Notes under the pieces: generated by a model | The model's input: the letters and a program-made list of their open reading frames with translations, nothing else | Databases searched by the model: none | Told to the model about the DNA's origin: nothing | Made by a program: the position numbers and the translations under genes | Assembly (NCBI RefSeq): GCF_001468395.1 | Contig: NZ_LNSG01000006.1 | Span: 1-64,000 of the forward strand | Length of the DNA stretch: 64,000 nt | From: Sphingopyxis sp. H073 | GTDB lineage: Bacteria > Pseudomonadota > Alphaproteobacteria > Sphingomonadales > Sphingomonadaceae | Direction: 5' to 3' | Part shown: one piece after another, positions 51,468 to 63,755 of the stretch | How positions within the stretch are numbered: the first letter of the stretch is position 1 | How the letters are laid out: the number at the start of each line of letters is the position of its first letter

Positions 51468-52664
51468 TCAGTATCGCCCCGTGGCCAGGCATGTGACGAC
51501 TTCCGATCCGCGGACCAGCGTCAGATCTACGGGGCACCGCTCCGCGATCGCCAGGATCCTTTCGCGCTCCTCCTCCGACAAACTTCCTTCGAGCTCGATC
51601 GTTCGCGTGAACACGTCTTGCGGGGTTTGGCCGCTGCGCTTGTCATGCGTTACGATCGTCCTCGCTTTGGCAAGCCCGAAGCCCTTGCGATCGGCATAGA
51701 GACGCATTGTCATCGTCGTACAGGCTGCCAGCCCTGCCGATACCAGTTCATAGGGCGCCAACCCGGAATCTAGTCCACCTTCGGAAATCGGTTCGTCGGC
51801 GAAGAAGTTGTGCGACCCGCTCCGCACCGCCAGCTGAAATTTGCCACCAACAGTTTCTTCAGCGACAACACCGCCGCCGTCGGGCGCTTCCAGGTCGGCC
51901 TCCAGGATTGGCAAATATCGAGGCGCCCACGCGGCAATCATGGCCGCAGCGAATTCCGCATCGCCGGGACCGGTGAGAAGATGATCTGCCTCGCCCAGCG
52001 AGACGAAGCTCTTGGGGTGCTTCGCGGCGCCGAACAGCGCCGAAGCATTGTCTATCCCGACGAGTTCGTCGCGAGGGGCATGGAGAATCAGGAGCGGCCG
52101 GTGCAGCGTCGCGACGCGCGGCAGCAAATCCTGCTGACGCGCGTCCGCCACAAAGCTGCGATCGAGGGAGAAGTGCCGGCCGGCCAAGAGGACGTCGGCG
52201 CGTCCCTCGACATCGATCTGCTGAAGGCTCGCCGGGTCAAGGAGGTGAAGCACATGGCGGACCTCTGCGGGCGCCGCAATCGTTGCGATCGCCCTGATCC
52301 CGGGCATCGCGCCGGCGGCGGCAAGTGCTGCCGCCCCTCCGAAGCTGTGACCGATGAGGAGGGCGGGCGGCATGCCTGCCGCTTCCATAGCCTCGCCCGC
52401 CGCGATCAAGTCGTCGGCATTATCAGCGAAGCGTGTCTCGCCGAACGCGCCTTCGCTCGAGCCGAGGCCGGCAAAGTCGAACCGCAACGCACCGATACCC
52501 TGCCGCGCAAGCGCACGCGCGATCCGCACCGCCGCGAGGCTGTCCTTGCCGCAGGTAAAGCAGTGGGCGAAAATCGCCCATCCGCGCGGCGTCGCCGCAG
52601 GACGATCGACAAGCCCCGACAGGCGGTTGCCGCGCGCGCCGTGAAAATCAAAGGGTTGCGCCAT
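51468..52664 (-). CDS. alpha/beta hydrolase-OsmC fusion protein
   Basis: A 398-residue two-domain protein. Residues 1-255 are an alpha/beta hydrolase (FAHCFTCGKDSLAAVRIAR; LIGHSFGGAAALAA with the nucleophile Ser; EADHLLTG with the His). Residues 270-398 are an OsmC domain with the redox Cys in LSAGLAACTTMTMRLYADRK (LAAC-TTM) and AERCPVDLTL. OsmC proteins reduce organic hydroperoxides. Start 52664 follows GGGAAGGAGCCCGACC. It lies 76 bp from a copy of the regulon palindrome. Confidence 0.92.
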   Translation of the reverse strand: MAQPFDFHGARGNRLSGLVDRPAATPRGWAIFAHCFTCGKDSLAAVRIARALARQGIGALRFDFAGLGSSEGAFGETRFADNADDLIAAGEAMEAAGMPPALLIGHSFGGAAALAAAGAMPGIRAIATIAAPAEVRHVLHLLDPASLQQIDVEGRADVLLAGRHFSLDRSFVADARQQDLLPRVATLHRPLLILHAPRDELVGIDNASALFGAAKHPKSFVSLGEADHLLTGPGDAEFAAAMIAAWAPRYLPILEADLEAPDGGGVVAEETVGGKFQLAVRSGSHNFFADEPISEGGLDSGLAPYELVSAGLAACTTMTMRLYADRKGFGLAKARTIVTHDKRSGQTPQDVFTRTIELEGSLSEEERERILAIAERCPVDLTLVRGSEVVTCLATGRY

Positions 52665-52739: not shown

Positions 52740-52757
52740 TTCATACCTAGGTACGAA
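52740..52757. promoter_or_regulatory. regulon palindrome, site a
   Basis: TTCATACCT-AGGTACGAA is 8/9 symmetric, the best copy of the shared element. It lies between the divergent OsmC-fusion gene (76 bp away) and ybaK (108 bp away). Confidence 0.7.
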
Positions 52758-52864
52758 TTTGCCCGCACCGTGACTTGGACTAACCGCGCTGCCCGGTTCG
52801 GGCGCCGATGCGCCAACCGACAGAAACCGCAATCACGCGGTGGGCACATTGATGGAGAGAAGGC

Positions 52865-53338
52865 ATGGCACGGACCACGCCAGCAACGAGGGCACTCGAA
52901 AAGGCAGGAATCGCCTTTGAGACCCGCACTTACGACTATGATCCGGGCGCGGATCGCATCGGCGTCCAGGCTGCCGAAGCGCTTGGAGAGGAGCCCCGGC
53001 GGGTACTGAAGACGTTGATGGCGAAAGTCGATGGCAAGCCGGTCTGCGTAATCGTCCCGTCAGATCGCGAGGTGTCGATGAAAAAGCTCGCCGCCGCGCT
53101 CGGCGGCAAATCGGCTGCGATGATGGCGCCGGCAGATGCGGAGCGCCTGACCGGCTATCATGTCGGCGGCATCAGCCCTTTCGGACAGCGCAAGCAGGTG
53201 TCGACTGCGATCGAAGAGAGCGCGCTTGCCGAGCCTTATGTCTATGTGAATGGGGGCCAGCGCGGACTTCAGCTTCGGCTCGAACCCATGGCGGCAATAT
53301 CGGCGATCAATGCGATCGCCGCACCACTCGTCGCCTGA
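52865..53338 (+). CDS. ybaK: Cys-tRNA(Pro)/aminoacyl-tRNA deacylase YbaK
   Basis: A 157-residue trans-editing enzyme that hydrolyses misacylated Cys-tRNA(Pro). Signatures are KTLMAKVDGKPVCVIVPSD, with the conserved Lys in EVSMKKLAAAL, and GYHVGGISPFGQRK. TGGAGAGAAGGC precedes the ATG. It is divergent from the OsmC fusion, with the shared palindrome between them, and its transcript meets the terminator at 53337. Confidence 0.93.
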   Translation: MARTTPATRALEKAGIAFETRTYDYDPGADRIGVQAAEALGEEPRRVLKTLMAKVDGKPVCVIVPSDREVSMKKLAAALGGKSAAMMAPADAERLTGYHVGGISPFGQRKQVSTAIEESALAEPYVYVNGGQRGLQLRLEPMAAISAINAIAAPLVA

Positions 53339-53373
53339 AAAAAGAAGGCGGCGACCGGGTTCCGGTCGCCGCC
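53337..53373 (-). terminator. rho-independent terminator
   Basis: The perfect 12-bp stem GGCGGCGACCGG (53347-53358) pairs with CCGGTCGCCGCC (53362-53373). On the minus strand TTCTTTTTT follows, so it chiefly ends the metallo-beta-lactamase-fold gene. It may also serve ybaK from the other side. Confidence 0.9.
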
Positions 53374-53390
53374 CAGGGGGGAGAGAGGGT

Positions 53391-54338
53391 TCAGACGCCG
53401 CGGTAGACGAGTTGGGTGAAGAGCGCCGGATTGATCACCCCGCCGCCCCATTTCGCGTCGAATTCGGCCGACGGCTTGGCAGCGATCGTCTCGTCGAGCG
53501 ACTTGCCCTGTGCCTTCAACGCCGCGACGCGGTTGCGGATCGTGACCAGCATGTCCCGGAAGGCTACGAGATCGGCGCGCGATCCGACCGGGCCGTGGCC
53601 AGGCACGACGATCGTTTCCGCCCCGGACTTCTCGATGTTCCAGTTAGCCGCACGGATCATGCCGTCGATGCCGCCGCCCGCGACATAGTCGATGAACGGA
53701 TAGACGCCGTTCCACCAGGTATCGCCGGTCGCGAGAACATTCGCCTTGCGGAAATAGACCGAAAGGTCGCCGTCGGTATGCGAGGGCATATAATGGCGGA
53801 TCTCGACGGTCTCGCCATTGAAGGTCATGACCTTCTCTTCATCGACGAGCATCGCCGGACGGTAACCCGCAGGCACCGGATCGAAGGTGTGCCCCCATTC
53901 CACGACGCGGATCGACTTATCGAGGTGAGCGGCGGTGTTGCGATGCGCGATGATCGTCGCGCCATCTTCATGCGCCCAGCCGTTGCCGTCGGTGTGGTCC
54001 CAGTGCCAATGCGTATTGATGACGAAGTTGAGGCCGCCGGGACGCAGGCCCGTCAGCACCTCTTCGATCTTTGCGCGCGACACCGCGATGCCGTCGTCGA
54101 CGAGCAGCAGCCCCTGCGGGCCCGCGAGCGCGACGATCGAACCGCCGGCGCCGTCGAGCACGGTCACATTGCCGCGCAGCGCGGTGGGCGTGACCGGCGA
54201 AGCCGCGGTCGCCGTATTGATGATGTCATAGGGCGTTTTGGCAGCCTCGTCGGCATGCGCCGGTGCGCCGACGGCAAGAGCCAATGCAAGGAGGGCGCTC
54301 GAGGCCAGACCCGGGCGGCGAAACAGAATATTGCTCAT
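53391..54338 (-). CDS. secreted metallo-beta-lactamase-fold hydrolase
   Basis: A 315-residue MBL-fold protein with signal peptide (LASSALLALALAVGAPAHA). The metal motif H110-x-H112-x-D114-H115 lies in NTHWHWDHTDGNG. Further ligands are in PSHTDGDLSVYF and VVPGHGPVGS. This resembles subclass B2/QPS-type periplasmic hydrolases rather than true beta-lactamases. A weak copy of the regulon palindrome (54398-54415) lies about 60 bp upstream. Confidence 0.9.
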   Translation of the reverse strand: MSNILFRRPGLASSALLALALAVGAPAHADEAAKTPYDIINTATAASPVTPTALRGNVTVLDGAGGSIVALAGPQGLLLVDDGIAVSRAKIEEVLTGLRPGGLNFVINTHWHWDHTDGNGWAHEDGATIIAHRNTAAHLDKSIRVVEWGHTFDPVPAGYRPAMLVDEEKVMTFNGETVEIRHYMPSHTDGDLSVYFRKANVLATGDTWWNGVYPFIDYVAGGGIDGMIRAANWNIEKSGAETIVVPGHGPVGSRADLVAFRDMLVTIRNRVAALKAQGKSLDETIAAKPSAEFDAKWGGGVINPALFTQLVYRGV

Positions 54339-54397
54339 GATATGACTCCGATGCTGTTGCGAGGAGCCGATCATCGGTCAGTTGAGAGGGCGAGTAA

Positions 54398-54415
54398 CTA
54401 ATATGAAGGTTTAGA
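54398..54415 (-). promoter_or_regulatory. weak regulon palindrome, site b
   Basis: On the minus strand TCTAAACCT-TCATATTAG matches one half of the shared element (6/9) and the other poorly (4/9). A -10-like GATGAT lies 22 bp downstream, at the spacing seen at sites d, e and f. Confidence 0.3.
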
Positions 54416-54500
54416 CCCGCCGATTGCGCTTGCCCGGTCATCCGGTCCGGTGCGATGGCGGCAGACAGCAGCACATATGCTGTCCGTCCGGAGGGGGCCG

Positions 54501-56378
54501 ATGGGGACAAGGCTTACAGGGTCAACCGCGTTCGCGCTGCTCGCATTGGCGCTCGGTATCGGCATCTTCGCGGTCGACATGTTCAGCCCGCTCGGCGGGG
54601 CAATCGCCGTATTATATACGGTCTGCATCATCCTGCTGACGCGGGGCGGCAGACCGGTCATGGTCGCGCTGGGCGGCATAGTCGCCGCGATCGCGGCAAT
54701 GATTGCCTTCCTTGCCGGTCATTGGGGCGAGCCGGTCGGCGCCGCGCATGTCCGGCTCGGCGTCAGCCTCGCCGCGATCGGTGTCACCACCATCCTTTCC
54801 TACGGCATTCTCAGCACGAGGAAGCTTTGCAGCGAACAGGCCAATATCCTCGCGTTGACGCACGACAGCGTGATCGTCCTCGATCGTCATGACCGCGTGG
54901 CGGGCTGGAACGAAGGCGCGGCGCGGATTTATGGCTGGTCCGCGGAGGAGGCGGTCGGCAGGGCCTATGACGACCTCATCACGCTCGATGCCCCGCGCGA
55001 GGCCGCGAAACAACGGCTCGAGCAGAGCGGCGACCTTACCGAAGAGATGGCGGGCGTGGGGAAGGACGGCGCGCCTTTTGTGGTATCGACGCGCATGGTG
55101 CGCCGTCGCAATCTCGCCGGCGCGCCCGACGGGCTGATCGAGGCAAGCATCGATTTGTCGGAGCAGCGCCGGGCCGATGCGGCTCGTCGCGCCTCCGAAA
55201 ATCGCTACCAGGCCATTTTCGATGCCGCCGGGTTCGCCGCGTGGGAGACCGACTGGACCGGGGTGCGGCAGCTCCTCGCGACGATCGCTCCCGATGGCGA
55301 AAATCTGGAAGCCTATCTCATCGCCAATCCGGACCTGCTCCGGAAGGTGGCGGCAACGCCGCATATCCATGAGGCTAACCAGGCGGCCGCGACGCTCTTC
55401 GGCGTTGCCGATCGGAGCGAATTGATCGGGAAGAATGTCATCGCACGCTATCCCGAGACGAACGGCCTCGCGCTTGCGACGCTTTTCGCGCGGCTGGCAA
55501 GCGGCGAGGATTTGGTCGAGGTCGAGACGCGGATAACTAATCTCAAGGGCAAGCCGATCGACGTAGTCCTGCGCGTGAGACTCGTCCCCGAGGGCGAACC
55601 CTGGTCGCGCGTCCTCATCATGGCCATAGACATGACCGAGCGAAATGAGGACCGCGCCCGGCTCGAACGCAACATGATCGAACTCGCCCATGCGTCGCGC
55701 GTGTCGATTCTCGGTCAGCTTGCGGCCTCCATCGCCCATGAGGTCAATCAGCCGCTGTCGGCGATCATGACCTATGCGAAATCGGCACGCCGCTGGCTCA
55801 AGCGCGACACGCCCGACCTTGACGAAGTGGCGAACTGCATCGAGCGGATCGACGCGAACAGCGAGCGCGCGGGCACGATCATCGCGAGGGTCCGGAACCT
55901 CGCGCGCAAGGGCAGCGCCCAGATCGAAGCGATCTCGCTCGCCGAGCTCGTTGACGAAGCGCTGGCGCTGGTCGATCGCGAAGCGTGCGCGGCACGCATC
56001 ACGATCCGCACCGAAATCGAGCCCTCGGACATCAGCATCGCGGCCGACCGTATCCAGATCCAGCAGATTCTGGTGAACCTCGTCATGAACGCAATCCATG
56101 CAAGCGCGGGGGCCGAACCGGGGGGCGATATATCGATTACGGCCACGATCGATACGGAGGGCATGGCGCACATCGCTGTCGTGGATCGCGGCAGCGGTAT
56201 CGTCGGGATCGAACCGCATGCCCTGTTCGACGCCTTTTACACGACGAAACCCGACGGAATGGGCATGGGGCTGTCGATTTCGCGATCGATCGTCGAGGCG
56301 CATGGCGGGCGCATTTCCGCCGCCAACAATCCCGGTGGCGGGGCAACGATCAGCTTCACCATCCCGGTCGCGGTTTAG
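54501..56378 (+). CDS. PAS sensor histidine kinase, membrane-bound
   Basis: A 625-residue kinase. Four hydrophobic helices (about 12-107) anchor it. Two PAS regions follow (first near 120-230, with [20 protein letters not shown]; second near 235-385). The dimerisation box has phospho-acceptor H413 in [17 protein letters not shown]. The ATPase has [14 protein letters not shown] (N), DRGSGI (G1) and [17 protein letters not shown] (G2). This is the FixL/DctB-like HPK4 type. ATG 54501 with GGAGGGGGCCG is chosen over 54450. It probably drives the two receivers that follow. Confidence 0.94.
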
Positions 56379-56418
56379 GCGGGTCGGAGCCGCCGCCGCC
56401 ATGCTATACCGGGCCCAC

Positions 56419-56436
56419 ATCATCCTTAGGTATGAT
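56419..56436. promoter_or_regulatory. regulon palindrome, site c
   Basis: ATCATCCTT-AGGTATGAT is 7/9 symmetric and lies 54 bp before the first receiver gene, suggesting autoregulation of the response regulators apart from the kinase. Confidence 0.55.
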
Positions 56437-56489
56437 GGCGGCGGGGCCACTCAGCTGCTGTTGCGGAGGCTCCTGTCAGGAGAAGTGAC

Positions 56490-56852
56490 GTGCCGAGTAA
56501 ATTGGTGGGCGTCGTCGACGACGATGAAGATGTCCGCACCAGCATCGAAAGCCTGCTGCGATCGGCGGGCTATCGCCCGTTCTGCTTTCGCAGCGCGGAA
56601 AGCTTCCTCGCCTCGTCCCACCGCGACATCATCGATTGCCTTCTCACCGACTTCAACATGCCCGGGCTGAACGGCCTCGAACTCCACCGGAAGATTGCGC
56701 GCGACCGACCGTCACTGCCGGTGATCCTCATGACGGCCTTTCCGACCGATGTCGTCCGCCGGGACGCCAAGGAACAGGGCTTGGCCGGCTTCTTCGTGAA
56801 GCCGATCGACGGCGACCTTCTCATCGACAAGCTGGAGGATGTGTTATGCTGA
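56490..56852 (+). CDS. single-domain response regulator
   Basis: A 120-residue receiver without an output domain. The acidic pocket (DDDED), phospho-acceptor D54 in LLTDFNMPG, T82 (LMTA) and K104 (FVKP) are complete. It starts at GTG 56490 behind TCAGGAGAAGTGAC. It overlaps the FixJ-type gene by seven bases. Single receivers of this sort act as phosphate sinks or by protein contact. Confidence 0.92.
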   Translation: MPSKLVGVVDDDEDVRTSIESLLRSAGYRPFCFRSAESFLASSHRDIIDCLLTDFNMPGLNGLELHRKIARDRPSLPVILMTAFPTDVVRRDAKEQGLAGFFVKPIDGDLLIDKLEDVLC

Positions 56853-57535
56853 TCAGGCAAAACCGCGGCGGCGCCGAGACGGCGCCCGAAAACGCGCCGC
56901 CGCTGCCGCCGCTCGTGTGCGTGCTCGACGACGATCCCGATATCCGCGGCAGCATCGAGAGCCTGCTGCGCGCTGAGGGGTTCTCGGTCCAGACCTACGC
57001 CTCGACCTCGGAATTCGTCATGTGCGACAGCGTCGATCGTGCGGCGTGCCTATTGCTCGACATCAATCTCGGCGATGCCAACGGCCTCGACTTCCAGGAA
57101 GAGCTCGCCGGCAACGAGATCCCCGTGCCGGTCATCCTGATGAGCGGCTATGGCGACATCCCGATGACCGTGCGCGGCATGCGGGCGGGAGCGCTCGATT
57201 TCCTCGCCAAGCCGCTTTCCGACGATGTGCTTCTGGCAGCAGTTTCGGATGCGATCCGCAAGGATGAAGTGCGGCGCGCCGCGAGCGCGGCGCTCGACGG
57301 CACCCGCCAGCGCTATAACGCGCTCACCAACCGCGAGCGTGAAATCATGGGACTGGTGACCGCCGGCCTGATGAACAAGCAGATCGCCGCGCGTCTCGGG
57401 CTCAGCGAGATCACCGTGAAGATCCACCGTGGAAACATGACCCGCAAGATGCAGGCCGACTCGCTCGCCGACCTCGTCCGGATGGCCGAGGAACTGGGCG
57501 CGCGCGAGGCATCGGCGAGCCGCTTCAACCGCTGA
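56846..57535 (+). CDS. FixJ-family response regulator
   Basis: A 229-residue regulator. The receiver (about 22-140) has D72 in LLLDINLGDANG, S100 (LMSGYGDIPM, the FixJ-typical form) and K122 (AKPLSDD). The LuxR-type helix-turn-helix (158-218) is TNREREIMGLVTAGLMNKQI, then AARLGLSEITVKIHRGNM. Start 56846 follows CTGGAGGATGTGTT. NarL/FixJ proteins bind sites with TACC/GGTA halves, so it is the prime candidate for the shared palindrome. Confidence 0.94.
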   Translation: MLIRQNRGGAETAPENAPPLPPLVCVLDDDPDIRGSIESLLRAEGFSVQTYASTSEFVMCDSVDRAACLLLDINLGDANGLDFQEELAGNEIPVPVILMSGYGDIPMTVRGMRAGALDFLAKPLSDDVLLAAVSDAIRKDEVRRAASAALDGTRQRYNALTNREREIMGLVTAGLMNKQIAARLGLSEITVKIHRGNMTRKMQADSLADLVRMAEELGAREASASRFNR

Positions 57536-57562
57536 TCCTGCGCACGGCGCGAGGGCCGTCCA

Positions 57563-57580
57563 GTCATACCAAGATGTGAA
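57563..57580 (+). promoter_or_regulatory. regulon palindrome, site d
   Basis: GTCATACCA-AGATGTGAA matches each consensus half at 7/9. A -10-like TATCTT begins 22 bp after it (57603-57608). It controls the 49-residue gene. Confidence 0.6.
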
Positions 57581-57651
57581 TCATCATGGCCCGCGGCGAT
57601 CCTATCTTCGCTCTGCAAGCGGCACAGCCGTGCCCGCCGTGGAGGCAGATC

Positions 57652-57801
57652 ATGTCGAAATCCGATACCGCAAGCCAGCGCCCCGACCTCGAAGCCGCGC
57701 GGACACCCGACCCGCGTGCCGCGACCGAGGAGCGCATCGATCATGCGCTCGAAGACAGTTTTCCGGCGAGCGACCCGCCCGCGGCGAACGTCTTCGACTG
57801 A
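57652..57801 (+). CDS. 49-residue conserved-type protein
   Basis: A small, soluble, acidic protein with GGAGGCAGATC before ATG 57652 (the in-frame ATG at 57586 touches the operator). It carries RAATEERIDHALEDSFPASD ending in DPPAANVF. The ALEDSFPASDPP motif recurs in many small alphaproteobacterial stress-linked proteins of unknown role. It has its own promoter with site d. Confidence 0.75.
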   Translation: MSKSDTASQRPDLEAARTPDPRAATEERIDHALEDSFPASDPPAANVFD

Positions 57802-57817
57802 GCCCGCCGGGCCATAA

Positions 57818-57835
57818 TTAAAACCTAAGAATGAT
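57818..57835 (+). promoter_or_regulatory. regulon palindrome, site e
   Basis: TTAAAACCT-AAGAATGAT matches the halves at 7/9 and 6/9. GAAAAT (57858-57863), a weak -10, begins 22 bp after it. It lies 78 bp before the hydrolase gene. Confidence 0.5.
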
Positions 57836-57913
57836 GGGAAGCGTGCCCGCGCGACCCGAAAATGCTCCCGCCAATCCCGCGAAATCTCTCGCGCATGAGC
57901 AAGGAGTAGGATC

Positions 57914-58735
57914 ATGAGCTTCATCAAGACCCCCGACGGCGTTTCGATCTACTACAAGGATCTCGGTGCCGGCCAGCCCGTCCTTTTCTGCCATGGCTGG
58001 CCGCTCTCGGCCGATGCCTGGGACAGCCAGATGCAGTTCCTCGGCGAACGGGGTTATCGCGTCATCGCGCATGATCGCCGCAGCCATGGCCGCTCCGACC
58101 AGGTCTGGGACGGCAACGACATGGACCATTATGCCGACGACCTCGCGGCCCTGATCGAGGCACTCGACCTTCGGGACATCATTCTCGTCGGCCATTCGAC
58201 GGGCGGCGGCGAAGTTGCCCATTATATCGGCCGTCACGGCACCAGCCGCGTCGCCAAGGCGGTTCTGATCAGCGCCGTGCCGCCGGTCATGCTGCAAAGC
58301 GAGACCAACCCCAACGGGACGCCGCTCGCGGCCTTCGACGACATCCGCGCCGCGCTGCTCGACAACCGCAGCCAGTTCTACAAGGATCTGACGACGCCTT
58401 TCTTCGGCTACAACCGTGCCGGAGCGGCGATTTCGGAAGGCACCCGCGACCATTTCTGGCTGCAGGGCATGATGGGCGGCCTCAAGGGCCAATATGACTG
58501 CGTCCATGAATTTTCCGAGGTCGACTATAGCGAAGACCTGAAGCGGATGACGATCCCGACGCTGGTTCTCCACGGTTCGGACGACCAGATCGTCCCGATC
58601 GATGCCTCGGCGCGCCTCTCCGTGGGCCTCCTCCCGCAGGGGCAGCTCAAGATTTACGAAGGCGGCCCGCACGGCATGCCGATCACGATGAAGGAGCAGG
58701 TCAACGCCGACCTCCTCGCCTTCATCCAGAGCTGA
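57914..58735 (+). CDS. chloroperoxidase-like alpha/beta hydrolase
   Basis: A 273-residue enzyme of the non-heme chloroperoxidase/peracid-forming group. Motifs are [29 protein letters not shown], nucleophile S95 in [14 protein letters not shown], and HGSDDQIVP and GGPHGMPIT with the Asp and His. It is the first gene after site e and ends in a terminator-like hairpin. Confidence 0.94.
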
Positions 58736-58749
58736 CCCGAACCCGAAGG

Positions 58750-58785
58750 GCAGGCGCCGACCCGCGAAACGCGGGCGACGCCTGC
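58750..58785 (+). terminator. hairpin after the hydrolase gene
   Basis: GCAGGCG (58750-58756) pairs with CGCCTGC (58779-58785), with inner CCCGCG/CGCGGG. TCTTTCTCCCC lies shortly after. It separates the hydrolase gene from the next unit, perhaps partially. Confidence 0.6.
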
Positions 58786-58822
58786 TCCGGTCTTTCTCCC
58801 CTCCAGACGCAGGAACAACAGC

Positions 58823-59260
58823 ATGACTATAAAGAGCCCGACCGACGAAGTAGCAGCGGCGAAAGCCCGCTACTGCCGCTTCATCGACACCAAGCAGTGG
58901 GAGGCCTTCGCGGGGCTTCTCGCCGAAGCCCCGAAGATCCGCATGTTCGGCCCCGACGGCGATCTCCTGTTCGCCTTCGACGAGCGCGACGCATTCGTTG
59001 CCCTGTCGAGCCAGTTCCTCGAAAAGGGCCGGTCGATCCACCAGGTCCATAACGCCGAGATCGACGAACTCCCCGACGGCCGCGTGGCCGCGGTCTGGTC
59101 GATGGAAGACCTTATTGTCTTCCCCGACGCCGCTCCGGGAGAGACCGCGAGGATGAACGGCTACGGCCATTATCACGAAATCTGGGAGCGTGGTCCCGAC
59201 GGCTGGCGCATCGCCGCGCTCGAGCTGCGCCGCACCATCCTCGACATCATCCAGGCATAG
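58823..59260 (+). CDS. SnoaL/NTF2-like protein
   Basis: A 145-residue alpha+beta-barrel protein: AKARYCRFIDTKQWEAFAGLL, IHQVHNAEIDELPDGRVAAVW and GYGHYHEIWERGPDGWRIA. Its acidic and His positions resemble SnoaL-like isomerases or hydratases of small aromatic compounds. It is the first of three tightly spaced genes (10 and 18 bp gaps). Confidence 0.9.
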   Translation: MTIKSPTDEVAAAKARYCRFIDTKQWEAFAGLLAEAPKIRMFGPDGDLLFAFDERDAFVALSSQFLEKGRSIHQVHNAEIDELPDGRVAAVWSMEDLIVFPDAAPGETARMNGYGHYHEIWERGPDGWRIAALELRRTILDIIQA

Positions 59261-59269
59261 GAATCCATC

Positions 59270-60361
59270 ATGACCAAGGATCGTATCAACGTCGGCATCA
59301 TCGGCGTGCATCCCGACAAGGGTTGGGCCAGCACGGCCCATGTCCCCGCCCTGCTGCAGCTTCCCCAGTATCGCATCTCCGCTGTCAGCCATCACAGCCC
59401 CGAGGTCGCCGCGGCGGCTGCCGCCAAATATGGCGTCGACCATGCTTTCGGCTCCGCCGACGAGCTGGTGGCGCATGGCGATGTCGATCTTGTCGTCGTC
59501 GCGGTGAAGGTGCTCGAGCATCGCGATCTCGTCGCGAAAGCGGCGGCTGCCGGGAAGGCCATCTTTTCGGAGTGGCCGCTCGGGACGAGCCTCGCGGAGG
59601 CGACTGCAATGCGCGACCTTGCGGCGCGGCACGGCGTTCGCACCGCTATCGGCCTCCAGACCCGTGCCATTCCGGCCTTCGCCCATATGCGCGACCTCAT
59701 CGCCGAGGGTTATGTCGGCAAGCCGCTCTCGGCGACGATGATCGGCTCGGGTATCGTCTGGGGCGAAACGCTGAGCGAGGGCTTCGCCTACACGCTCGAT
59801 CCGGCAAGCGGGGCGGCGATGCTGAACGTGCCGTTCGCGCACTCGCTCGACGGCCTCCTTCATGTCCTCGGCAGCGAGTTCGACAACCTGTCGGCGGTAC
59901 TCGGCACGGCGCGCCCCACCATTCGCATCGAGGAGACGGGCGCCGAAGTGCCGATGACCGTCGCCGACCAGGTGATGGTCGCGGGGCGCCTCGGCAATGG
60001 CGCGGCGCTTTCGGCCCATTTCCGGGGCGGCCTGTCGCGCGGCACCAATTTCCACGTCGAGATCAACGGCACCGCCGGCGATCTCATCCTGACCGCTCCC
60101 GTCGGATATGTCGGGATTGGCGACTTCGAGCTTCGCGGCGCGCGCGGCGAAGAGACGCTCCACGCCCTGGAGATTCCCGAGCGCTATGGCGCAACGCGCT
60201 TCGAGGCCGGCCCGGCGCAAAGCGTCGCCCTCGCCTATGAACGGCTCGCCTCGGACATGCTCGGGGGGACGTCGCTTGCCCCAAGCTTCGACGATGCCGT
60301 CGCACTCCACCGGCTGATCGACACGATCGCGCAGCGCGGCAGCGCCGTCGGTGCGGCCTGA
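59270..60361 (+). CDS. Gfo/Idh/MocA family oxidoreductase
   Basis: A 363-residue NAD(P)-dependent dehydrogenase-like protein. The nucleotide fold begins INVGIIGVHPDKGWASTAH. The usual catalytic EKP reads E-W-P (IFSEWPLGTSLAEA), as in Gal80-type members, so the catalytic Lys is absent and a ligand-sensing or altered catalytic role is possible. The C-terminal beta domain (NGAALSAHFRGGLSRGTNF) is intact. Confidence 0.9.
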   Translation: MTKDRINVGIIGVHPDKGWASTAHVPALLQLPQYRISAVSHHSPEVAAAAAAKYGVDHAFGSADELVAHGDVDLVVVAVKVLEHRDLVAKAAAAGKAIFSEWPLGTSLAEATAMRDLAARHGVRTAIGLQTRAIPAFAHMRDLIAEGYVGKPLSATMIGSGIVWGETLSEGFAYTLDPASGAAMLNVPFAHSLDGLLHVLGSEFDNLSAVLGTARPTIRIEETGAEVPMTVADQVMVAGRLGNGAALSAHFRGGLSRGTNFHVEINGTAGDLILTAPVGYVGIGDFELRGARGEETLHALEIPERYGATRFEAGPAQSVALAYERLASDMLGGTSLAPSFDDAVALHRLIDTIAQRGSAVGAA

Positions 60362-60378
60362 GAGCAAGGAGACGGAAT

Positions 60379-61344
60379 ATGAAAGCGATTGTCGTTCGCG
60401 CGTTCGGCGGCCCCGAAGCGCTGGGGATCGAAGAAGCCGAGCTGCCCTCGCCGGGCGCCGGTGAAGCACTCGTCGCGGTGAGCGCCGCCGGCGTCAACTT
60501 CATGGATACCGGCACCCGCCGGGGCCTGACGCCGGGCAAGTCGGCTCCGGTCGTGCCCGGGGTCGAAGGCGCCGGCACGGTGCTGGCGGTCGGGCCGGGG
60601 GTCGTCGACATTCGACCCGGCGACCGCGTTGCCTGGTATTTCGCGTGGGGGAGCTATGCCGAACAGCTCATTGCCCCGGCCGACCAGCTGGTACCCCTTC
60701 CCGACGATCTCTCGTTCGAAGATGGCGCGGGCATTATGATGCAGGGCCTCACCGCGAGCAATCTGGTGTTTGAAAGCCACCCGGTGAAGCCCGGGGACGT
60801 CGCGCTGGTTCACGCGGCTTCGGGAGGCGTCGGCCTGCTGCTCACGCAGATGATCAAGCTCCTCGGCGGCGAGGTGATCGCGCGCGTATCGAGCGAGGCG
60901 AAGGTCGCGCTCGCGCGCGAGGCCGGCGCCGACCATGTCCTCGTCGGGCGCGGCGATGAAATCGGCGATAAGGTGCTCGCAATCACCGCCGGCCGCGGCG
61001 TCGACGTCGTCTATGACGGCACTGGCGCCGAGAGCTTTCGCACCTCGCTCGATCTGGTCGATTATCATGGCACGCTCGCGCTGTTCGGGCCGCTCATGGA
61101 GCCGCTTCCACCGATCGATCCCTTCTCGATCCCGAAGAGCATCAAGATCACCTACCCGGTGGTCATGCACCATGTCCGCAACCGCGACGCGCTGCTGGCG
61201 CGGTCCCGTCAGCTGTTCGACTGGATGCGATCGGGCCAGCTCCGGCTTCATGTCGGGCAGAGCTATCCTCTCGCTGCCGCAGCGGATGCACACCGCGACA
61301 TCGAGTCGCGACGTTCGACGGGCAAGCTCCTGTTGAAACCCTGA
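60379..61344 (+). CDS. quinone oxidoreductase-type MDR protein
   Basis: A 321-residue zinc-independent medium-chain reductase. The N-terminal AGVNFMDTGTRRGL and the nucleotide motif HAASGGVGLLLTQMIKLLGG are those of NADPH:quinone reductases (QOR). It lacks the structural zinc Cys cluster. It is last in the three-gene unit and is followed by a GC hairpin. It probably reduces quinones or alpha,beta-unsaturated carbonyls. Confidence 0.93.
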   Translation: MKAIVVRAFGGPEALGIEEAELPSPGAGEALVAVSAAGVNFMDTGTRRGLTPGKSAPVVPGVEGAGTVLAVGPGVVDIRPGDRVAWYFAWGSYAEQLIAPADQLVPLPDDLSFEDGAGIMMQGLTASNLVFESHPVKPGDVALVHAASGGVGLLLTQMIKLLGGEVIARVSSEAKVALAREAGADHVLVGRGDEIGDKVLAITAGRGVDVVYDGTGAESFRTSLDLVDYHGTLALFGPLMEPLPPIDPFSIPKSIKITYPVVMHHVRNRDALLARSRQLFDWMRSGQLRLHVGQSYPLAAAADAHRDIESRRSTGKLLLKP

Positions 61345-61400
61345 CACGGCGGCGGCGGTCCGCCCAGCCCCAGGCGTCCTCCCAAGGCCCCGCCCCGTGC

Positions 61401-61428
61401 GCCCCCGGCAGCCCTCCCTGCCGGGGGC
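61401..61428 (+). terminator. strong GC hairpin
   Basis: GCCCCCGGCAG (61401-61411) pairs with CTGCCGGGGGC (61418-61428), a perfect 11-bp stem with a six-base loop but no T-run, 57 bp after the quinone reductase gene. Confidence 0.6.
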
Positions 61429-61454
61429 GATCGCGTCTGCACGGCCTCCCCCAT

Positions 61455-61472
61455 CCGAAACCAACGTATGAA
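61455..61472 (+). promoter_or_regulatory. regulon palindrome, site f
   Basis: CCGAAACCA-ACGTATGAA matches the right half at 8/9 and the left at 5/9. TATTCT (61495-61500) begins exactly 22 bp after it, as at site d. Confidence 0.55.
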
Positions 61473-61563
61473 TTTTCCCGGGCAGGGAAGAGCATATTCT
61501 CGTCAGGCAAGACAAATTCTCCCCTCCGGTCCGCACCGGCCCGGACAGCGAAAGGAAATCATC

Positions 61564-61998
61564 ATGTCCGACGCAAGGCTCCTCACCATCGACATCCCCG
61601 TCAAGCTCGCCGAGGTAAAATCGGTGCACAGTATCGGAGGCCTCGCCTTTGAAGGCGACCTGCCGGCCGCGCTGTTCCATCTGGGTCTCATCACGGCGGA
61701 CATTGCCGACTGGGGCGCTGCCGCGGAGGTAATCACGGTCTTCCATACCAATGCCGGCCATGTCGCGCTACACGACGACGCCTATAATGCGGCGCGCAAC
61801 ATCGCGACCGGCAATCCCTACAAGCAGCTTGTCGCCGATCTCCAGGCGGTGGGCGTCCAGATGGAATTGTGCGGCGCGACGGCCAAGGTGAACGGGTGGG
61901 TCAATGCCGATCTTCTGCCGGGCATCCGGATCAACCTCGACGCGATGGCCCGGACGATTCAGCTCGTCCAGCAGGGCTTCGTCAAGATCACCGAATAA
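61564..61998 (+). CDS. DsrE/DsrF-like protein
   Basis: A 144-residue protein of the DsrE fold: FEGDLPAALFHLGLITADI, VFHTNAGHVALHDDAYN and VQMELCGATAKVNGW. The single Cys in ELCGAT sits where sulfur-carrier DsrE proteins have their active Cys. AAAGGAAATCATC precedes the ATG. It is followed after 11 bp by an MDR gene. Confidence 0.85.
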   Translation: MSDARLLTIDIPVKLAEVKSVHSIGGLAFEGDLPAALFHLGLITADIADWGAAAEVITVFHTNAGHVALHDDAYNAARNIATGNPYKQLVADLQAVGVQMELCGATAKVNGWVNADLLPGIRINLDAMARTIQLVQQGFVKITE

Positions 61999-62009
61999 AG
62001 GATATCATC

Positions 62010-63005
62010 ATGACCAAGAATTCGATGCGGGCTTTGATCCTCGATGAGGCCAATGCGCCCTTCCGGTCGGTGCTGACCGAGCGTCCCGAGCTCGGGAGCG
62101 GCCAGGTTCTGGTGCGCGCGCATGCGAGCGGCGTGAACCCGCTCGACACGAAAATCCGGGCCGGCCAGGCGGCGCATGCGCGGCACAGCTTCCCCGGCAT
62201 CCTCGGCATGGATCTTGCCGGGGTGGTCGAGGAAGTCGGCACCGACGTCACGGGCTTCCAGCCCGGCGACGAGGTGTGGGGCATGACCGGCGGCGTCGGT
62301 AACGTCCAGGGCTCGCTCGCCGAATATGCGGCGGTCGACGCCGCGCTTCTTGCCCGCAAGCCCGCCAACATCTCGATGCGCGAGGCAGCCGCCCTGCCGC
62401 TCGTCACGATCACTGCCTGGGAAGGGCTGGTCGACCGCGCCGGGGTCCGCGCCGGCCAGACGGTCCTCGTACTCGGCGGCGCCGGCGGCGTCGGTCATGT
62501 CGCGGTCCAGATCGCCCTCGCACGCGGGGCAAAGGTCTTCGCAGTCGACCATTCAAACCGCGCCGACTACCTCACATCGCTCGGCGCGATCCCGATCGAC
62601 CGCGAGGAAGCCGTCGCGGACTATGTCGAGCGGCTGACCGGCGGCACCGGCTTCGATCTCGTCTATGACACGGTCGGCGGGCCGGTTCTCGACACCGCTT
62701 TCGTCGCGGTCAAGCGCTTCGGGCATGTCGTGAGCTGCCTCGGCTGGGGCACGCACGCGCTCGCGCCGCTGTCGTTCCGGGCCGCAACCTACTCGGGCGT
62801 ATTCACGCTCCTGCCGCTCCTCACAGGCGAAGGCCGCGCCCATCATGGCGAGATCATGGCCGAAGCGACGAAGCTCGTCGAAGCGGGCAAGCTGGTGCCG
62901 CGCCTCGACCCGCGTCGCTTCACGCTCGACGAGGCCGCCGATGCGCATGCCGCGATCGCCGATCGTTCGGCGCAGGGCAAGCTCGTGATCGACGTCGCGC
63001 TCTGA
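62010..63005 (+). CDS. zeta-crystallin-type MDR oxidoreductase
   Basis: A 331-residue medium-chain reductase: ASGVNPLDTKIRAGQAAHA, LGMDLAGVVEEVGTDV and the nucleotide motif VLGGAGGVGHVAVQIALARG. It lacks zinc-binding Cys clusters. It is related to NADPH:quinone or alkenal reductases. It is the second such enzyme in the island and forms a unit with the DsrE gene. A terminator follows. Confidence 0.93.
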   Translation: MTKNSMRALILDEANAPFRSVLTERPELGSGQVLVRAHASGVNPLDTKIRAGQAAHARHSFPGILGMDLAGVVEEVGTDVTGFQPGDEVWGMTGGVGNVQGSLAEYAAVDAALLARKPANISMREAAALPLVTITAWEGLVDRAGVRAGQTVLVLGGAGGVGHVAVQIALARGAKVFAVDHSNRADYLTSLGAIPIDREEAVADYVERLTGGTGFDLVYDTVGGPVLDTAFVAVKRFGHVVSCLGWGTHALAPLSFRAATYSGVFTLLPLLTGEGRAHHGEIMAEATKLVEAGKLVPRLDPRRFTLDEAADAHAAIADRSAQGKLVIDVAL

Positions 63006-63022
63006 TCCCGACGACTGCGCTG

Positions 63023-63056
63023 CAAGGCCGGGCGATCGACAGATCGTCCGGCCTTG
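63023..63056 (+). terminator. terminator hairpin after the MDR gene
   Basis: CAAGGCCGG (63023-63031) pairs with CCGGCCTTG (63048-63056), with an inner CGATC/GATCG. The T-run is short (TTGTCAT). Confidence 0.65.
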
Positions 63057-63200
63057 TCATCTGGTGCGCGGAATATTGAATGCCGACGACCCGAACGTAA
63101 CGCTCGTGGCTTCGCAGGGTAAAGGCGTCATGAGCATCCCCTCCAGGTGGAGGCGGCGGACCGCCTGGGCCCGCCGCCTTCTGGTAGCGCCGAACGCGCG

Positions 63201-63500
63201 TCAGCTGAGGGGGGGCAGCTGCGCGGCGAATTCGGCGCGGGTCTTGGGCTGACCGTCGATCATCTCGACGGTCGCCTTCGACTTCTCGAGCGACTGCATG
63301 AGCGACGCGGGGCCCGCGAACGGCCGCCCGCCGATGTGCCACCCATCGGTGTGAAGCTCTTCGATAAGAACCCAGACGACTTCGCGAAAGGCCTCGGACC
63401 CTTCGAACCGCACCATGACGTCGGTGAGTGCCTTGGCCATTTCGTGCTTCTGCTCGGGGGTAAAGACGCCGTCGACGAGCTTGACGTTCACAAAGGGCAT
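63201..63500 (-). CDS. 4-oxalocrotonate tautomerase family protein
   Basis: A 99-residue tautomerase-superfamily protein. After Met removal the N-terminal catalytic Pro is exposed (MPFVNVKLVDGVFTPEQK). The core FREVVWVLIEELHTDGWHIGG is typical of the longer 4-OT group. AGGAAGGATCGATC precedes ATG 63500. Members isomerise keto-enol or dehalogenate small acids. Site g lies 81 bp upstream. Confidence 0.92.
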   Translation of the reverse strand: MPFVNVKLVDGVFTPEQKHEMAKALTDVMVRFEGSEAFREVVWVLIEELHTDGWHIGGRPFAGPASLMQSLEKSKATVEMIDGQPKTRAEFAAQLPPLS

Positions 63501-63564
63501 GATCGATCCTTCCTGGTCTCGGCTACCAGCGGCAACCGTTCGTGCCGGGCAAGCTTCCCCCACA

Positions 63565-63755
63565 TCACTCGCGATCGGTAGTCATGCCTTGGTATGAGTT
63601 ATCGCTCCCCGGAAACTGCGCCGATGATGCCCGCCACAGCATCGTTGTGACCGCCTGCGTCCGATCTGAGACGTGGAGCTTTGAGAAGATGCTCCGCAGA
63701 TGGGCGAGACCAAGAGTTCCATGCCTCTCCCGATCTGCCGTGGGACCATCATTGT
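63565..63755 (-). pseudogene. LuxR-type response regulator, C-terminal fragment
   Basis: On the minus strand AHLRSIFSKLHVSDRTQAVT is the final DNA-binding helix region of NarL/LuxR-type regulators. The preceding helix-turn-helix is degraded (NDGPTADRERHGTL) and no receiver domain is present. It ends at 63565, overlapping site g. It is a remnant of another regulator of the same class. Confidence 0.65.
63581..63598 (-). promoter_or_regulatory. regulon palindrome, site g
   Basis: GTCATGCCT-TGGTATGAG has both halves at 7/9 to the consensus. It lies 81 bp before the tautomerase gene. Confidence 0.6.

Follow-up and report, generated by a model that had tools for sequence, protein, structure and literature searches.

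A palindromic box repeated through a FixJ/StyR-type two-component island of Sphingopyxis sp. H073 is a probable operator of the island's own regulator

Among described systems, StyR offers the closest point of comparison for the locus considered here. Excerpts of PMC5874301 give its operator as ATAAACN4GTTTAT and its reading residues as Lys175, Val176 and His179, and excerpts of PMC2442086 place its activating site at about −40 and describe StyR as both activating and repressing transcription, from different sites. We have analyzed the first 64,000 nucleotides (hereafter the window) of contig NZ_LNSG01000006.1 from Sphingopyxis sp. H073 (assembly GCF_001468395.1), where a palindromic box recurs through an island of 14 genes that runs from an OsmC-hydrolase fusion gene to a tautomerase-like gene and includes those for a PAS-PAS histidine kinase, a single-domain receiver and a FixJ/StyR-type response regulator. 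We consider it very probable that the regulator encoded in the island has this palindrome as its operator, through which the kinase would drive activation of the island genes, in class II fashion at some promoters. Binding by the regulator is something we infer from co-occurrence, conservation and geometry, and phosphotransfer and activation are likewise conclusions drawn from sequence.

Seven boxes, all intergenic and none assigned to a strand, front nine putative transcription units: OsmC-hydrolase; YbaK; a metallo-beta-lactamase-fold (MBL) hydrolase; the kinase; receiver-regulator; a 49-residue open reading frame (ORF); chloroperoxidase-like/SnoaL/Gfo/MDR; DsrE/MDR; and tautomerase. Box 1 (TTCATACCTAGGTACGAA, 52740..52757) separates the OsmC-hydrolase gene (−) from the YbaK gene (+), the two being divergent, and box 2 (CTAATATGAAGGTTTAGA, 54398..54415) likewise separates MBL (−) from the kinase gene (+). 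Box 3 (ATCATCCTTAGGTATGAT, 56419..56436), with the window's top score of 23.1, is 5′ of the receiver and regulator genes; box 4 (GTCATACCAAGATGTGAA, 57563..57580), box 5 (TTAAAACCTAAGAATGAT, 57818..57835; score 13.8) and box 6 (CCGAAACCAACGTATGAA, 61455..61472) are 5′ of the 49-residue ORF, the chloroperoxidase-like operon and the DsrE-MDR genes, respectively, and box 7 (GTCATGCCTTGGTATGAG, 63581..63598) is 5′ of the tautomerase gene (−). An earlier, sequence-only reading of this DNA had claimed a palindrome in front of nearly all transcription units, and this description holds. The six sites it had listed (52740, 56419, 57563, 57818, 61455 and 63581) are all present, and the one it had called weak, at 54398, is real, being unchanged in two sister species. 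Its consensus, TTCATACCW-WGGTATGAA, fared less well: only one box fits within one mismatch and three within three, and the W-W centre is weakly conserved, although the core ATAC-N4-GTAT is conserved across relatives. Our own version of the putative operator is TCATACC-N2-GGTATGA, with that same core.

When searched for within the window, the strict 18-mer recovered three of the six boxes at three or fewer mismatches, and shuffled versions recovered none. Position-specific matrices performed better: with five sites used for training and set aside, the sixth ranked first in the 64-kb window in every case, box 1 included. A second matrix was counted on sites from relatives without the window, the search for those sites having been seeded by the window-trained matrix; it scored the six boxes at 13.8 to 23.1 and the box at 54398 at 15.2, and the best place elsewhere in the window reached 10.0. 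Columns 3 to 6 of this matrix read A (.99), T (.76, with A at.18), A (.92) and C (.90).

Good copies of the box are nearly confined to the island, rather than occurring at chance frequency across the genome. In the 4.31-Mb genome, TTCATACCWWGGTATGAA with up to three mismatches was found at three places, all within the island (reversed control, 0), and the 16-mer core TCATACCWWGGTATGA with up to two mismatches at four, again all within the island (reversed control, 1). Relaxing the latter search to three mismatches added six further places, the reversed control remaining at one. All six are outside the island; under the relatives' matrix three of them reach at least 13 (one intergenic, at 16.1, and two in called ORFs, at 15.2 and 13.3), and one more intergenic place, scoring 15.9, was seen near C2 51881 in background stretches of this genome. 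By eye, none of the distant candidates is near genes resembling those of the island; this genome may nonetheless contain a few distant regulon members. Among 80 genomes of the same genus, four or more matches to TCATACCWWGGTATGA at up to two mismatches were found only in the three that carry the island, namely this one (G000), G243 and G256 (4, 5 and 4), and 12 of these 13 matches are inside it. The remaining 77 genomes together gave 27 matches (reversed control, 10), and matches with a single mismatch were confined to the same three genomes.

The regulator is found at E ≤1e-55 in eight of the 80 genomes, G000 included, and is 98% identical in G243 and 93% identical in G256. Neither of these sisters lacks any of the 14 island genes, whose order and strands are unchanged and whose proteins are 73-99% identical; additional DNA separates the second MDR gene from the tautomerase gene. 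In sister regions located by exact match to a box (found in 14 of 14 cases), the three species agree at every position of all seven boxes (0 of 126 box columns changed versus 528 of 1376 flank columns); without the region of 63581, which is non-syntenic beyond the tautomerase side, 216 of 815 flank columns changed. The boxes are thus kept upstream of orthologous genes in two sisters, and they also occur beside the same type of regulator in distant relatives.

For these more distant comparisons we scanned the best 80 of 232 loci, which come from alpha-, beta- and gammaproteobacteria and one acidobacterial bin. At a score of 12 the window-trained matrix gave 160 hits, and 62 of the 80 loci had one within 4 kb of the regulator, compared to a mean of 18.9 loci (maximum 61) for 40 column-permuted controls; at a score of 16 the count was 40 of 80 against a control mean of 2.7 and a maximum of 35. 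Only 31 of the 160 hits are inside called genes and 129 are outside, even though our own crude caller assigns 86% of this DNA as coding. The association follows a particular clade of regulators. Using the relatives' matrix at a score of 13 and the single best locus per genome among the matches listed, a box was found at 11 of 15 loci whose regulator is at least 42% identical, compared to 1 of 14 loci with paralogues at 35-40% (7 of 15 and 1 of 14 with the window-only matrix). A box generic to the FixJ family is not supported, since paralogues in the lower class, among the matches listed, mostly do not have it. A chance origin of the boxes was also considered and is ruled out by the leave-one-out ranks, the genome-wide counts, the clustering in relatives and the conservation in sisters.

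Behind the 160 boxes of the relatives are 177 distinct genes, including 67 regulators or receivers, 22 that look AraC-like by eye, 21 kinases and six chloroperoxidase-like enzymes, the rest falling into small clusters (36) or being singletons (25). These counts indicate that the module's own genes are common targets and that other targets are variable. We also searched 100 loci with tblastn (the best 80 of 232, 19 loci from further genomes and the continuation of the window's contig): a kinase homologue was found in 90, a chloroperoxidase-like homologue in 25, and OsmC-hydrolase and tautomerase homologues in one each, the latter being on the window's own contig. No YbaK or DsrE homologue was found in these 100 loci.

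The spacing between box and promoter provides a further line of evidence. The sequence-only reading had proposed a −10-like hexamer 22 bp downstream of three boxes, and this is confirmed at 57563, 61455 and 57818: TATCTT (57603..57608, one base different in G256), TATTCT (61495..61500) and GAAAAT (57858..57863) are each on the + strand at exactly that distance. The box at 54398 adds a fourth, GATGAT (54370..54375, − strand), located exactly 22 bp past the box toward MBL and unchanged in the sisters. All four hexamers are on the strand of the downstream gene. In the relatives, where a hexamer was scored at each offset past the box, 19 of 258 de-duplicated strand-sites had a −10 at +22 (Poisson p 1.4e-7), other offsets averaging 4.28; the highest count at any offset in 200 letter-shuffled controls was 13. 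This peak does not depend on the selection of boxes, for which only the 18 bases of the box itself were scored. Since the +22 group has T, T (0.79 each) where the −35 would begin, box and −35 appear to abut. The suggestion that the site overlies the −35, as for a class II activator, is supported by the peak in relatives, and four of the seven window boxes show this spacing. Counts in relatives were also high at +36 and +37 (14 and 15; the largest at any remaining offset was 10), and the hexamer there is often TAGAAT, which points to another promoter layout in which the box sits approximately 14 bp farther upstream. Tandem boxes were considered as the source of this second peak, and the site spacings do not cluster to match. 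Separately, at three loci in same-genus genomes (L203-L205) the kinase and chloroperoxidase-like genes diverge from a region that contains two boxes at a distance of 32-34 bp.

The explanation that we favour is that the PAS kinase (54501-56378), probably linked to the membrane, would respond to a signal by phosphorylating the regulator (56846-57535), and that the free receiver (56490-56852) would also accept phosphate. Once phosphorylated, the regulator would dimerise on TCATACC-N2-GGTATGA and, at promoters where the box abuts the −35 and its centre would lie about 43 bp before the transcription start, would recruit RNA polymerase in the class II manner. In this way the regulator could switch on its own genes together with those of the surrounding small redox or detoxification-like enzymes. 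From the gene content, our guess is that the signal is a reactive electrophile or an aromatic compound.

Several observations weigh against this model. Three of the seven window boxes, at 52740, 56419 and 63581, have no −10 at +22 (box 52740 has AACAAT at +23 on the − strand and nothing at +22 on either strand), and the second peak in relatives suggests that not all boxes act in the class II position. In five other genomes of the genus, with the regulator at 51-59% identity, five matches were found at up to two mismatches (0 to 2 each), none of them near the regulator; with a looser matrix, four of these genomes, G231 being the exception, did show boxes close to the regulator, and these boxes are more divergent. 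Some of the column-permuted matrices nearly equalled the real one (61 versus 62 loci), and we assume that these are near-identical permutations. Lastly, 20 non-island stretches of this genome (393,693 bases) contain three places that score at least 13, so the weakest boxes (e.g. 57818, at 13.8) are credible by place and conservation and not by score. The missing −10 elements are also compatible with the boxes being repressor or autoregulation sites through which the regulator silences the island in one phosphorylation state. A site abutting the −35 can block polymerase as well as recruit it, and StyR itself has both activities in excerpts of PMC2442086. The peak at exactly +22 in relatives and the agreement with the StyR activating site near −40 in the same excerpts favour activation, however, and we regard repression as unlikely.

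The alternative that we take most seriously, while still finding it doubtful, concerns a second FixJ-type regulator encoded just past the window (C6 ~63954-64832), which could be the main binder of the boxes or share one box set with the first. It has the same recognition-helix residues (ITVKIHRGN) and so could bind the same boxes, a further point against assigning them to the first regulator alone; it is also encoded near the island in both sisters (76% and 83% identity), and in G256 an intergenic box scoring 14.1, situated some 600 bp ahead of it, precedes a 128-residue ORF. On the other hand, at distant loci (the best 80 of 232) the boxes accompany proteins related to the first regulator, with the kinase homologue at 90 of 100, the second regulator diverges faster (76-83% versus 93-98% for the first), and, besides box 7, this genome has no intergenic box of score 12 or more near it. 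It is highly improbable that the boxes are an RNA or other structural element, or a mobile repeat, and not a protein operator at all. They are palindromic and repeated inside one island, and a MobA/MobL gene is located some 10 kb past the window, but the boxes differ among themselves although every one is invariant across the species compared, −10 hexamers are enriched at a fixed spacing, and boxes cluster at the regulator in distant genomes.

Our preferred model, in which the first regulator activates from the boxes, applies to the following island genes. Upstream are the alpha/beta hydrolase-OsmC fusion (51468..52664, −; Pfam), the YbaK/EbsC Cys-tRNA(Pro) deacylase (52865..53338, +; exceeding the TIGR00011 cut-off) and the MBL hydrolase (53391..54338, −; Pfam). 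The kinase (54501..56378, +) has HisKA, HATPase_c and PAS matches in Pfam and an N-terminus that is hydrophobic and membrane-like by eye; the receiver (56490..56852, +) has Response_reg alone, and the regulator, the presumed binder of the boxes (56846..57535, +), has Response_reg and GerE. Next is the 49-residue ORF (57652..57801, +), which is preceded by a ribosome-binding site and has no match in Pfam or NCBIfam; its longer 71-residue reading shares 92% and 73% identity with those of the sisters. The C-terminus of this ORF is ERIDHALEDSFPASDPPA plus a few residues, a type of tail that occurs in other small alphaproteobacterial proteins. Two putative operons follow on the + strand, their protein families assigned by Pfam: one for the chloroperoxidase-like alpha/beta hydrolase, a SnoaL-like protein, a Gfo/Idh/MocA protein and a zinc-type MDR (57914..61344, intergene gaps of 9-88 bases), and one for a DsrE-like protein and the second MDR (61564..63005). 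The 4-oxalocrotonate-tautomerase-like gene (63201..63500, −; PF01361) is last. Starts were picked by ribosome-binding site for OsmC-hydrolase (52664), MBL (54338), the kinase (54501), the 49-residue ORF (57652), DsrE (61564) and tautomerase (63500). Two more OsmC-hydrolase fusion paralogues are encoded in this genome, at C2:351831-353009 (59%) and C4:95962-97125 (56%), and no box was found near either at up to three mismatches.

The island runs on past the window edge. Next to the second FixJ-type regulator are genes for another chloroperoxidase-like enzyme, with an apparent Tat-type signal peptide by eye, and an SDR (L034:954-3788, corresponding to C6 63954-66788); this regulator and this enzyme also adjoin both sister islands. 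Farther on (L034:4227-7948) are a NarL-type regulator and a beta-propeller (Reg_prop/Y_Y_Y) kinase. The relatives of this pair in both sisters (83% and 51-52%) occupy a different place, with the tautomerase on one side and the second regulator on the other. The idea that box 7 serves the second regulator is weakened, as in the sisters this box is flanked by the tautomerase gene and by the end of a NarL-type regulator gene. The MobA/MobL relaxase-like gene (L034:11063-11707) hints at a mobile element.

Overall, the island appears to form a self-contained circuit that controls small redox and detoxification-like enzymes. A more tentative extension, which we put forward as a possibility only, is that it is one version of a portable regulon in which a kinase, two receivers and one operator word are shared across alpha-, beta- and gammaproteobacteria, the enzymes are swapped by lineage, two promoter layouts (+22 and +36/37) are used, and, in this genome, one box set receives two inputs through a second regulator whose reading residues are the same. 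The putative operator would give a readable regulon to a widespread FixJ/StyR-type clade for which literature searches turned up no characterised member. The best operator copies lie almost entirely within a single compact island, so it should be possible to transfer the whole circuit to a laboratory strain and to screen for the inducer with one reporter.

With regard to known systems, the regulator matches PF00072 and PF00196 far above cut-off (a receiver followed by a LuxR-type helix-turn-helix) and is thus a response regulator of the FixJ/NarL type. The sequence-only reading had called it FixJ-type; it is nearer to StyR (structure 1yio, E 1.8e-47, its closest solved structure) than to FixJ (5.3e-36). 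Like FixL/FixJ, which mediates an oxygen response, the island pairs a kinase with a FixJ-like regulator, but both proteins fall short of the equivalog cut-offs (regulator, NF006900, 180.3 bits against 255; kinase, NF041777, 234.9 against 850). A Rhizobium etli record annotated nodW-1 is 46% identical to the regulator, a likeness to rhizobial NodV/NodW that is by annotation only, and literature searches turned up no NodW operator. TdiR, of anaerobic toluene metabolism, belongs to the same regulator superfamily, and the site proposed for it in excerpts of PMC5874301, GGTGTTCGCACC, is a different palindrome. Searches of the open-access literature by sequence strings or names found no published record of the motif, operator or regulon, and excerpts of PMC9751292 contain nothing specific to it. 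Apparently, then, this is a new operator for an uncharacterised FixJ/StyR-type clade within a kind of system that is already known.

The closest parallels are with StyR/StyS and TodT/TodS, which mediate responses to aromatic hydrocarbons. Besides regulator architecture, the likeness includes an inverted repeat with 6-N4-6 spacing (excerpts of PMC5874301) and the position of the StyR activating site near −40 (excerpts of PMC2442086), which resembles that of a box abutting the −35. The differences, again relative to excerpts of PMC5874301, are in the outer operator bases (TCATAC here, ATAAAC there), in the reading residues (K-I-G here versus K-V-H, i.e. Val to Ile and His to Gly by alignment to StyR) and in the kinase, since TodS is long with two transmitter domains and the island kinase has one HisKA, one HATPase_c and a hydrophobic N-terminus. 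The free receiver and the target genes also differ. Among the 98 of 100 sequences alignable at the recognition helix (TVKIHRGN here), the second regulator included, Lys is present in 97 and Gly is found at the position of StyR His179 in 84. As the spacing is kept while the tested residues and operator bases differ, the regulator appears StyR-like on DNA but is not classed with StyR/TodT, and this paired change in operator bases and a recognition-helix residue offers a test of how DNA is read in this regulator family.

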